DNA of 33,485 bases from Bacteroidales bacterium (GTDB lineage Bacteria; Bacteroidota; Bacteroidia; Bacteroidales; P3), in contig JAFTBM010000042.1 in NCBI GenBank assembly GCA_017455205.1, positions 1 through 33,485 on the forward strand. The letters run 5' to 3'. A model generated the notes under the pieces. It did no database searches and was not told the origin of the DNA. It worked only from the letters and a program-made list of their open reading frames with translations. A program made the translations under genes and the position numbers. The stretch's first letter is position 1. Each line of letters begins with the position of its first letter. Positions 317 through 33,298 of this stretch are shown here, piece after piece.

Positions 317-421
317 TCCGTGTCATCTCCGTGTCAACTCCGTGTCAGGTCCGTGTCACCTCCGAGTAGAGTCGGACTTGACACGGACTATGCACGAACT
401 ATGCACGAACTAAACACGTGC
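317..421. repeat. 11-bp-period tandem array
   Basis: Four copies of an 11-bp unit starting TCCGTGTCA (317, 328, 339, 350) are followed without a change of phase by diverged units (361, 372). After a short transition come two copies of TATGCACGAAC (389, 400) and one diverged copy (411). TGACACGGA at 379-387 is the reverse complement of the first unit, so the array can fold back on itself. Unit ends vary while the core is kept. No spacers are present, so this is not a CRISPR array. Confidence 0.75.
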
Positions 422-782
422 CATCTACCTACCCACCACAAAGAAAAAAGGGAAATGTAAAAAGCGAAACGGCACTTTGCCTTTCACCTCTCACCATTCT
501 TTTTCAAGGACGCAATTCAACACGTCGGCACAGCTAACGGGATGCCTCCTCGGTTTTCAATTCTCAATTTCCAATACCCAATGCCGCAGACATCAAGCAG
601 GAGCAGTGTCGGTAGTCGGGTGCGAGGGAAAGGAGGGTGTTTGCGATGGTCAGGCAGTCGGCGAGGGTATATCTGCTGCTGATGATAAATACAGAAAGGT
701 GAGGAAGAGATTTGGTATCGGAAGAGGATGCTTTTCCGAGGGCACAATGAGGGGGAAGAGAGCCTGCGTTGGGGAAATAAAT

Positions 783-808
783 AAGGGCAAGCCTTGCAGC
801 CTGCCCTT
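783..808 (-). terminator. Terminator of the initiator tRNA
   Basis: A 7-bp stem (783-789 pairing with 802-808) on the minus strand is followed by a T-rich run ending in TTATTTATTT. It lies 5 bp past the tRNA 3' end, which fits a short monocistronic tRNA transcript. Confidence 0.6.
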
Positions 809-813
809 GTCGG

Positions 814-885
814 TAGCGGGGGAAGGATTCGAACCAACGACCTCCGGGTTATGAGCCCGACGAGCTACCTCTGCTCTACCCCGCA
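814..885 (-). tRNA. Initiator tRNA-fMet (CAU)
   Basis: The minus strand folds into a full cloverleaf with anticodon CAU. Two initiator marks are present: the anticodon stem ends in three consecutive G-C pairs (GGG/CCC), and the first acceptor pair (position 1 with 72) is a mismatch, here U-U. U8, A9, a 4-bp D stem and the TTCGAAT T-loop are in place. CCA is not encoded, because CCG follows the discriminator A. The odd point is the T stem, where GTTGG faces CCTTC and gives two adjacent U-U mismatches. The gene has its own promoter (933-964) and terminator (783-808). Confidence 0.93.
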
Positions 886-932
886 CTCTCGGTTTTCCCT
901 CTTTGGGCTTTCGCCCCGCTGGAAAACAGGTG

Positions 933-964
933 CAAAGGTACGCTTTTTGTGCGTTCCGACCAAA
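933..964 (-). promoter_or_regulatory. Bacteroidota-type promoter for tRNA-fMet
   Basis: On the minus strand TTTG (961-964) is separated by 20 bp from TACCTTTG (933-940). This fits the known Bacteroidota sigma-ABfr layout of a -33 TTTG/TTG and a -7 TAnnTTTG. It sits about 50 bp upstream of the tRNA 5' end. Confidence 0.75.
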
Positions 965-984
965 TATTTTTTTGAATTATTTTC

Positions 985-31133: not shown

Positions 31134-31901
31134 CTACCGTGGGAAGATACCATAGACCGCAGCACCCGACCCGCTCATCGATGCGTAGGCTGCACCGTGC
31201 CGATACATCTCCTCCTTGAGCTGGGCGATGGCGGGATGGGCAGGGAATACCGATGCCTCAAAATCATTGACTATCAACCCTCGCCACTGCTCGACAGGTA
31301 GCCTTGCGGCCTGCCGCAAGTCGGGCCTTGGCTGCCCAAACCGCCCTCTATCCAAGCCCGCGTAGGCTTCGCGAGTGCTCACATGCTCTTCGGGCGGCAA
31401 GGCCACCTCGGTGCGGAAGCCCTCGAGGTCGAGGTCGAATGGATCAAGCCGCTCGCCAATACCCGTGGCATAGGCCGGACGGTTGCGGACGAAGAAGGCA
31501 CAATCGGCTCCCAGACGGGCAGCCAGCTGCTCAAGCCTCCCTTCCGTGAGGCAGAGCGAAAACATCTCGTTGAGCATCTTCAGCGTGAAGGCTGCATCGC
31601 TGCTTCCGCCACCCAGCCCTGCCCCGAAGGGGATGCCTTTTTTGAGGCGGATACTGACCGCTGGAATGGCAAACTCCTCGTGCAACAACTGCCAGGCACG
31701 CAGACAGAGGTTGTCGGCCGGTGCACTGTCGAGTGCAATCCCCTCCTGCTGCATCTGCAGCTCGCTGCTTTCGCTGATTTCCAGCTCATCGCGTAGCGAG
31801 TGGACTGGCAGGAAGAGGGTCTCGATGTCGTGGTAGCCGTCGGGTCGCTGCCCGACGACGTGCAGGCCGAGGTTTATCTTGCAGTTAGGAAATGCTATCA
31901 T
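31134..31901 (-). CDS. ispE: 4-diphosphocytidyl-2-C-methyl-D-erythritol kinase
   Basis: This kinase acts in the MEP route to isoprenoid precursors. The 255-residue GHMP kinase starts at ATG 31901 (MIAFPNCKINLGLHVVGQRPDGYH), the classic IspE opening. The ATP loop is PFGAGLGGGSSDA (91-103), and SMSGSGAAVYGIF is near the end. It lies 7 bp after phoH. The longer frame to 32018 only overlaps phoH. Confidence 0.96.
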   Translation of the reverse strand: MIAFPNCKINLGLHVVGQRPDGYHDIETLFLPVHSLRDELEISESSELQMQQEGIALDSAPADNLCLRAWQLLHEEFAIPAVSIRLKKGIPFGAGLGGGSSDAAFTLKMLNEMFSLCLTEGRLEQLAARLGADCAFFVRNRPAYATGIGERLDPFDLDLEGFRTEVALPPEEHVSTREAYAGLDRGRFGQPRPDLRQAARLPVEQWRGLIVNDFEASVFPAHPAIAQLKEEMYRHGAAYASMSGSGAAVYGIFPR

Positions 31902-31908
31902 GGCTATA

Positions 31909-32877
31909 CTACTCTTGAGCGATCTCCGCCTCGCGCTCGTAGGCACGGACAATGGCCGAGACCAAGCGGTGGCGCACCACATCGGTGTGGTCGAGGCGCA
32001 CAATGCCGATGCCCTCAATGCCCTCGAGCAGCCGCAGAGCCGTCGGCAAGCCGCTCTGCTGCCGCCGCGGGAGGTCTACCTGCGTCAGGTCGCCCGTCAC
32101 CACAAACTTGGCGTGCCGCCCCATGCGGGTGAGGAACATCCGCAGCTGGGTGGAGGTGGCGTTCTGCGCCTCATCGAGGATGACGAAAGCATTGTCCAAC
32201 GTGCGGCCACGCATATAGGCCAGCGGGGCGATCTCGATAGTGCCATCCTCCCAGTGGGAGAGGAGCTTCTGCTGCGGAATCATATCGCGCAGGGCATCGT
32301 AGAGCGGTTGCAGGTAGGGGTCGAGCTTGTCGCGCATATCGCCTGGCAGGAAGCCGAGACTTTCGCCCGCCTCCACCGCTGGGCGCGTCAGCACGATGCG
32401 GCGCACCTCCTTATTCTTCAATGCTCTGACGGCCATAGCCACCGCCGTGTAAGTCTTACCTGTGCCCGCAGGACCTACGGCGAAGACGAGGTCGCCCGAC
32501 GCGATAGCCTCCACCAGGCGTTGCTGCCCCGCCGTGCGAGCCTTCACCAGCAGTCCATTTCGCCCGTGCACCAGCACCCCCGCGTCCACCTCTGCCCCAG
32601 GCGCGTCGCTCCCGCTCTCCATAATCTGCATCACAGCGTTCTCGGTCAGCCGCCCCATGCGGTCGTAGTGAGCCAACATAGCCTGCAGCTTTTCGCCAAA
32701 CCAGTCCAGCTCCTCCTCTGGTCCCACGGCCTTCAGCATCTCGCCCCGCACCATCAGCCGCAGCTTCGGAAACAGACGCTTGACGAAAGGCCACAAGCGG
32801 TCGTTCTCGCCCCAAAGGCGCATATAGTCCACCTCGGCCAGCGAATAGACGCGTTCTACGGCAGGAGTCTCGCTCAT
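31909..32877 (-). CDS. phoH: PhoH-like ATPase
   Basis: The 322-residue protein belongs to the PhoH/YbeZ family of P-loop ATPases linked to RNA metabolism and the endonuclease YbeY. An N-terminal region of about 100 residues is followed by Walker A GPAGTGKT (135-142), PAVEAGESLGFLPGD, and Walker B FVILDEAQN. VTGDLTQVDLP and LDHTDVVRH complete the family signature. ybeY is not in this window. It overlaps the small Cys-rich membrane gene by 4 bp. Confidence 0.95.
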   Translation of the reverse strand: MSETPAVERVYSLAEVDYMRLWGENDRLWPFVKRLFPKLRLMVRGEMLKAVGPEEELDWFGEKLQAMLAHYDRMGRLTENAVMQIMESGSDAPGAEVDAGVLVHGRNGLLVKARTAGQQRLVEAIASGDLVFAVGPAGTGKTYTAVAMAVRALKNKEVRRIVLTRPAVEAGESLGFLPGDMRDKLDPYLQPLYDALRDMIPQQKLLSHWEDGTIEIAPLAYMRGRTLDNAFVILDEAQNATSTQLRMFLTRMGRHAKFVVTGDLTQVDLPRRQQSGLPTALRLLEGIEGIGIVRLDHTDVVRHRLVSAIVRAYEREAEIAQE

Positions 32878-33071
32878 GGCTGCTCCTCCTTTGCGTTGAA
32901 GAGGCGCTTATGGCAGGTGCAGTGCGTGCAACGCCCCGTGGTGGGGTCGGCATTGGCGCAGGGTCGGCGGTACTCCTGCTCCTCGTGCAGAAGCATCTTC
33001 GCCCCCAAAGCCAGCATCAGCAACGCTACCGCCACGATGGCCGCCACGAGCACCACTATCAACGAGCTCAT
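32874..33071 (-). CDS. Small Cys-rich single-span membrane protein
   Basis: The 65-residue protein has one N-terminal membrane helix (about 4-27) and a short soluble tail. Four cysteines lie close together: CANADPTTGRC then HCTC (CxxCxC spacing after the TGR turn). The cluster could bind zinc or a redox metal. Its stop overlaps the phoH start (ATGA), and a candidate promoter (33138-33145) lies upstream, so it is the first gene of the phoH unit. I do not recognise the family with certainty. Confidence 0.75.
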   Translation of the reverse strand: MSSLIVVLVAAIVAVALLMLALGAKMLLHEEQEYRRPCANADPTTGRCTHCTCHKRLFNAKEEQP

Positions 33072-33137
33072 AAAGTCCTAATTTTCATAGCCAATATCCG
33101 CAGAGGCAGCCACTTGGGCAAAGCCTCAAATCGGCAG

Positions 33138-33145
33138 CAAAGATA
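33138..33145 (-). promoter_or_regulatory. Probable -7 box for the phoH unit
   Basis: TATCTTTG on the minus strand is a full TAnnTTTG match, 67 bp before the start of the small membrane gene. No clear TTG is seen at the -33 position. Confidence 0.5.
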
Positions 33146-33210
33146 CGCAAATAATCGCACACCGCAGCATGAAATCGTGCAACAGACTTATACATAGCCT
33201 TTTACTGGGC

Positions 33211-33298
33211 AGTTCTTCAATAGTTCTTCAATAGTTCTTCAATCGATGTTCAATAATTTATTGAAGAACGATTGAAGAACGATTGAAGAACGATAGGC
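33211..33298. repeat. 11-bp-period inverted array, same unit as at 21.05 kb
   Basis: Eight 11-bp units run in phase. Three identical AGTTCTTCAAT (33211, 33222, 33233) are followed by two diverged units (33244, 33255), then two GAACGATTGAA (33266, 33277) and a last diverged unit (33288). The left half is the reverse complement of the right half (GTTCTTCAAT versus ATTGAAGAAC), so a long hairpin can form around the AATAATTTATT centre. The unit is the same as in the array at 21046-21122. Confidence 0.9.

Follow-up and report, generated by a model that had tools for sequence, protein, structure and literature searches.

Tandem arrays with an exact 11-bp period recur between the genes of a 33,485-nucleotide contig (JAFTBM010000042.1, contig C23; ‘the window’) from the 2.17-Mb draft genome of a Bacteroidales bacterium (GCA_017455205.1; G000), and each is part of a dispersed element of approximately 90–125 bp built from 11-bp units. 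Several families of such elements exist, and 11 bp is the sole feature common to all of them. The reading that we tentatively prefer, although at less than even confidence, is that these dispersing elements present one site per helical turn to a candidate DNA-binding protein. Bacterial dispersed repeats are usually defined by sequence, whereas here a length close to one helical turn is the common character; genome searches based on sequence alone miss such a class of repeat.

The original prediction, made from the letters of the window, had described four intergenic arrays with units differing between loci. Tandem Repeats Finder returned period-11 arrays at all four places (317–364, 381–418, 8187–8231, 21044–21084, 21088–21129, 33211–33255 and 33260–33294), and all fell between genes according to our own, crude gene calls, so both the arrays and their intergenic position were borne out. 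Six period-11 arrays scored ≥50 in the window, compared with none in 200 resamplings under a first-order Markov model within 500-bp blocks, which produced 53 arrays of that score at any period. However, the arrays proved to be arms of larger elements rather than independent loci, and the claim of differing units held only in part: the 317 and 8187 loci (elements B and C) are distinct, but the 21-kb and 33-kb loci each hold a copy of the same 93-bp element, A, with the common unit ATTGAAGAAC[GT]. An origin as four independent simple repeats is therefore rejected: one unit occurs at two of the loci, and every one of the four is part of a dispersed element.

Element A comprises four units, a 5-nt centre and four inverted units. 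Its left units end in CAAT, or nearly so, and its right units begin with ATTG, or nearly so; some units are perfect (GTTCTTCAAT) and others keep barely anything beyond the tetranucleotide. In both B and C one arm is near-perfect and the other degenerate, each keeping the 11-bp register; the degenerate arm is the right one, which is inverted, in B and the left one in C, and a CGGA/TCCG anchor is present at both loci. Degenerate units retain a phased tetranucleotide, CAAT/ATTG in A (judged by eye) and CACG in B (by consensus). All three families are inverted as a whole, with two arms of about four units, and outer ends are partly conserved in B and C; other families and species may have direct arrays only. 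Coordinates are collected in Table 1.

Copies of these elements are abundant in the source genome. The exact A double unit gave 107 matches, and the reversed pattern none. Two samples were used, a first of 388,531 bases (the window and 20 further stretches) and a larger one of 700,362 bases. Because A arrays had played a part in choosing half of the stretches of the larger sample, densities were taken from the first only. The larger sample held 20 copies of A, 21 of B and 13 of C, and its 76 period-11 arrays between gene calls compare with none within genes. Identity among B copies was 0.95 in the left arm, 0.64 in the right arm and 0.25 in the downstream flank (20 copies, L083 being left out), and among C copies 0.96 in the right arm, 0.49 in the left arm and 0.28 in the downstream flank (13 copies). 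The presence of whole elements at many loci with mostly unrelated flanks requires copying, and it appears that entire elements have been copied around the genome. Exactly four exact units were found in 18/21 B copies, and four to six units per copy in C. CTAC (GTAG on the other strand) was found at the right end of 12/21 B, 5/13 C and 1/20 A copies, and at the left end of 3/21 B and 1/13 C copies. At least two further families were sorted by eye, D (purine-rich, e.g. GAAGAAGAGGG) and E (GATGGGTAGGA); the E pattern matched G000, G069 and G112 among 81 family-sample genomes, and G000 only among 118 phylum-sample genomes. Among named genome contigs the exact A pattern occurred in nine stretches, three from Bacteroidales, of which two (L055 and L059) were clearly two-armed, and six from other phyla or classes (single match each). 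Viral contigs gave no match to A, and two contigs matched B.

Whether arrays might instead be made in place, by a mutational process (slippage, or copying from the paired arm) that favours 11-bp steps, can be judged against these counts. Such a process could accommodate the arrays of congener G069, which vary from about 2.5 to 10 units, and the sharing of units between opposite arms: the array upstream of gyrA in G076 is a perfect four-plus-four palindrome (arm identity 1.00) in which the variable base of each unit is matched in the other arm. It leaves unexplained how an identical unit comes to lie at dozens of unlinked sites and why B so regularly has four units, and we consider it an improbable account. 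Plain slippage, which had been put forward originally, explains neither dispersal nor near-fixed unit number, and whole-element copying speaks against it.

Period 11 was the commonest period in the first sample (38/83 arrays, with a further 11 arrays at period 22 and four at 33). A spacing control, scoring any tetranucleotide found four times at a fixed step, gave 32 places at 11 bp compared with none at 10, three at 12, seven at 7 and five at 9, and the best lag among 8–16 was 11 in 28/31 scored gaps of G000 and in 10/10, 13/13 and 5/6 gaps of three congeners. The genus is large, with 120 genomes in the set searched. Period 11 accounted for 33/94 arrays in six congener species close in thrS (20 stretches) and 10/49 in 19 other congeners (19 stretches, seven of which hold one; L068, chosen for an A match, was left out of the count), compared with 0/45 in ten other genera of the family (20 stretches; four arrays have period 22), 1/13 in other families of the class and 0/5 in other classes of the phylum. 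The spacing control likewise scored step 11 at 26 places among the thrS-close species and at one in the other genera. Period 11 is thus over-represented against other periods in the 388,531 bases sampled from G000, but only some members of the genus show a strong excess.

Two further observations were made in these genomes. About half of the congeners match thrS (18221–20155 in the window) at 73–83% over its full length and the others in fragments only; the latter include G073, G023 and G067, whose GyrA is approximately 90% identical, a patchiness that suggests thrS transfer or replacement within the genus. Secondly, CTGN5CAG, an 11-bp palindromic frame, occurred 14, 6 and 6 times in intergenic DNA of G029, G069 and G004, where other CTG–CAG spacings were rarer (0–8, 0–3 and 0–3, respectively), but was not in excess in G000 (20, compared with 25 at N4).

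Congeners carry arrays too, although with other units, and it is the length that stays, as had been proposed. The A-type unit of G029 is TGTTCTTCGAT, and the exact G000 double unit is absent from the whole G029 genome (0 matches). GTTC repeated four times at an 11-bp step was matched in 48/119 genomes (198 matches in G076, 191 in G029, 94 in G042 and 82 in G081) and CGGA in 60/119 (305 in G000, 270 in G010, 143 in G065 and 111 in G070); these whole-genome matches overlap and are not element counts. The reversed control gave 0 in these high-count genomes, with the exception of five in G010. Among the matches listed, those of G029 and G042 were near-identical and paired in opposite orientation, as would be expected of recent copying. 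Units were common to 5/7 pairs of loci from the same genome, compared with 13/458 between-genome pairs (p about 1e-6). A period-11 or period-22 array scoring ≥44 lay upstream of gyrA in 17/30 congeners (the best 30 of 108 matched genomes), with units that mostly differ; the corresponding figures were 9/30 for ffh (best 30 of 58) and 5/20 for mutS (20 high-ranking of 57). G000 has no array at ffh, where others do, and many gaps lack any; gap type, rather than gene, seems to matter. At L114 (14420–14565) and other G069 loci, long direct arrays change unit from CATCCCCTCTG to CATCATCTAGG with the register kept.

Arrays favoured long gaps of the promoter-bearing types. Across four genomes, arrays were present in 31/45 divergent, 22/71 tandem and 4/17 convergent gaps of ≥200 bp (divergent versus tandem, p = 6e-5), and in 1/122 gaps of 60–199 bp. 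Of A elements 12/18 lay in divergent gaps, compared with 47/141 of gaps ≥150 bp (p = 0.007). Elements at contig edges (2/20 A, 3/21 B and 5/13 C) were left out of the gap types. The motif TAnnTTTG, which we take to be the Bacteroidetes −7 promoter element, was found between element and start codon in 20/31 A, 13/25 B and 11/15 C cases (44/71 in total, a count with no background rate), and elements therefore appear to lie upstream of promoters.

This placement favours a cause at the level of DNA over the 11-nt RNA structure rule that had also been suggested. A-form RNA has approximately 11 bp per turn and the arms of A can pair, and hairpins of that form in leaders or terminators might be envisaged; but with a likely −7 motif so often downstream of the element, convergent gaps the least used and Rfam (gathering thresholds) finding two tRNAs and nothing else in the window, an RNA element is very improbable. 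A role as terminators is disfavoured by the same low use of convergent gaps.

A structural role for the DNA itself was also considered, in which inverted arms extrude as cruciforms and absorb negative supercoiling between divergent promoters. The preference for divergent gaps agrees with this, as does palindromy above the 95th percentile of controls in 37/68 arrays; the remaining 31/68 did not exceed it, G069 arrays being mostly direct (11/13 not above control), and a palindrome needs no 11-bp unit. Strong hairpins were formed by 54/127 arrays, and in these 54, with the centre chosen to maximise pairing, arm pairing was better in unit register in 36, equal in three and worse in 15, a weak indication. 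As fewer than half of the arrays form strong hairpins, the hairpin is rejected as a universal feature and cruciforms alone fail; we regard this explanation as unlikely.

Nearly as likely as the preferred reading is that the elements are purely selfish, comparable to repetitive extragenic palindromic (REP) sequences or miniature inverted-repeat transposable elements (MITEs): an enzyme would recognise the 11-bp-phased arms, copies would survive only in long gaps, and each species would have undergone a recent burst. The 191 phased GTTC matches of G029, paired forward and reverse, imply about a hundred near-identical two-arm copies, and the 94 of G042 imply dozens; sharp element edges, the lack of period-11 arrays in coding DNA and the species-specific units fit equally. 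Against this, the flank search within the genome samples revealed neither a target duplication nor a clean empty site, the three Y1_Tnp matches of the G000 genome are not beside A, B or C units, and two-promoter gaps are preferred over promoterless ones. Moreover, the 11-bp step is common to unrelated families of a single genome, a feature that selfishness by itself would not require.

No mobilising enzyme for A, B or C was found. REP-associated tyrosine transposases (RAYTs) were rejected on the absence of A, B and C units from the three Y1 loci. Reverse transcriptase was likewise set aside: its single match in the genome is at L124 (contig C31), and the B element present at that locus (3015–3062) is probably ordinary. 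In support of copying, the outer flanks of 11 G029 arrays had no match elsewhere in the G029 sample. Gibbs sampling for a motif common outside A elements returned pyrimidine- or purine-rich strings only. One Y1 locus, L123 (contig C6), sits among another repeat, AAGGAGGCGAAG...CTTCGCC: at approximately 1–2397 of the locus the Y1 domain falls within one long frame of 798 aa whose 5′ edge is open, and copies of the repeat occur in frame on either side of it. The arrangement resembles a RAYT that carries REPs of its own within the coding frame. The reverse transcriptase at L124 comes after an N-rich stretch that, on visual inspection, is reminiscent of a diversity-generating retroelement template region.

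The simplest common cause of the step, the taste for promoter gaps and the frequent inversion is probably a single machinery with an 11-bp reading interval. This might be a protein acting on the arrays where they lie, the possibility to which we lean, one that moves them, which is slightly less favoured, or both. Under the first of these, elements would spread by copying and the current unit of a species would come to replace older ones; a DNA-binding protein whose step is 11 bp would meet about four sites per arm, spaced one per turn along a single face of the helix, and would act on promoters close by or on the chromosome. Families unlike in sequence would then keep equal length because the same machinery reads them all. 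Of the causes first suggested, a protein binding one face of the DNA is a DNA-level one, the kind that placement favours over an RNA rule, but no DNA-binding protein for the elements is known or was found.

Other points weigh against such use in place. The elements could simply be tolerated in such gaps, and an element lengthens its own gap, so the preference for long gaps is partly circular. The distribution of elements per gap (none in 35, one in 26 and two in two) is not clearly different from chance, and presence at a given gene, as at ffh and mutS, is patchy. A single regulon for A was rejected: 31 genes are read away from A elements, and the 20 that were scanned revealed no common function. 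Fifteen of these 20 had a family match and five did not; the families include ArgRS, a Clp AAA protein, GyrA, OTC, a pterin-binding enzyme, a DNA polymerase III subunit, a phage-type integrase and an S41 peptidase. In the wider genus the spacing control found ten places at step 11 compared with nine at step 7 and eight at step 9. Finally, reversed GTTC was non-zero in 36/119 genomes (maximum 28 in G003, then 21 in G055 and 13 in G085) and reversed CGGA in 20/119 (224 in G069, 103 in G057), although reversing the anchor while keeping the step still yields an 11-bp array, so that this count controls for the anchor, not the step.

A fixed 11-letter length with changing spelling across a group of gut bacteria hints at shared machinery that counts helical turns. 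In its most extended and more doubtful form, this would amount to a DNA ‘ruler’ within one genus, where one machinery of 11-bp step recognises, spreads and homogenises arrays beside promoters, its specificity being rewritten in each species and its step fixed, until in some species most long divergent gaps are occupied. If one machinery does lie behind the arrays, its reading of DNA must go by phase, and the species-specific units would constitute a natural experiment on protein specificity and genome-wide sites changing together.

Apart from the elements, both ends of the window carry repeated DNA: positions 1–141 match the starts of contigs C18 (100% over 134 bp) and C8 (98% over 140 bp), and the region near 33341–33485 matches the end of C21 (100% over 131 bp). 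T9SS domains in the window proteins fit Bacteroidales. Heptamers similar to those adjoining element B precede many B copies, as seen in the upstream-flank consensus, and step 7 is also frequent in congeners.

Table 1. Positions and composition of 11-bp-unit elements and adjoining repeats in the window.
Feature	Position	Strand	Composition
Element B	305..434	+	Outer end; four TCCGTGTCANN units, 317–360; centre, 361–378
Element B, right side	~379–421		Inverted degenerate arm, CACG every 11 bp; beyond it, outer end CTACC
Element C	8125..8237	+	Outer AGCCACCC; degenerate left arm; GATACGGANNN units, 8187–8231; outer GGGTGGCT
Element A, copy 1	21039..21131		Left: TGGTTTTCAAT, CGAATGCCAAT, CGAAATTCAAT, CGTTCTTCAAT; 5-nt centre; right: ATTGAAGAACG x3, ATTGAGGAAAA
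Element A, copy 2	33211..33303		Left: AGTTCTTCAAT x3, CGATGTTCAAT; 5-nt centre; right: ATTGAAGAACG x3, ATAGGCGAAAA
7-bp repeats (CTATAAC, CAATTCT)	238..306	+	Directly 5′ of element B

In the open-licence literature no description of a repeat class with 11-bp units of changing sequence was found. Direct spacing of 11 bp, as within each arm here, recalls the binding sites of OmpR/PhoB-type regulators, which are arranged head-to-tail, one turn apart, with about seven conserved and four variable bases. Such sites are usually few and confined to the promoters of one regulon, whereas the elements carry about four per arm, are inverted, lie beside unrelated genes and have changed species-wide.

Three kinds of repeat are the nearest in print that we have seen, and none, in the available portions of the papers, has an 11-bp unit of changing sequence (PMC3733652, PMC4596501, PMC4679880). 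REP and REPIN sequences with GTAG or CGTC tags are described in the first as short palindromic repeats with many intergenic copies and several families per genome, some species-specific; REPs measure 20–40 bp, have stems mostly of 6–9 bp and are found chiefly downstream of genes, where the gap is unidirectional or convergent (PMC3733652). The elements resemble these in being many-copy, intergenic, palindromic and of several families per genome, and CTAC closes B and some of the C copies. They differ from that description in size (~90–125 bp), in their 11-bp units at about four per arm and in their mainly divergent gaps; the GTAG/CGTC tag is not in most members and is absent from A (by eye, CGTC was noticed only in some elements of congeners), and A, B or C units flank none of the three Y1 loci (PMC3733652). 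The Porphyromonas gingivalis minisatellite BrickBuilt, which lies within a MITE and has a 23-bp unit and 19 copies in one strain, likewise places tandem units in an intergenic Bacteroidales element whose ends are inverted, but, as far as its account goes, the 23-bp unit has one sequence in one species, compared with 11 bp and changing sequences here (PMC4596501). The TAACTGA heptamer repeats, reported from distant phyla, are direct, of fixed 7-bp sequence and mostly just before start codons; like the present elements they form many intergenic sets of short direct repeats with no common gene function (PMC4679880). The TAACTGA unit was not seen here, and by comparison with the heptamers as reported the elements lie farther upstream and keep a fixed length through changing sequence (PMC4679880).

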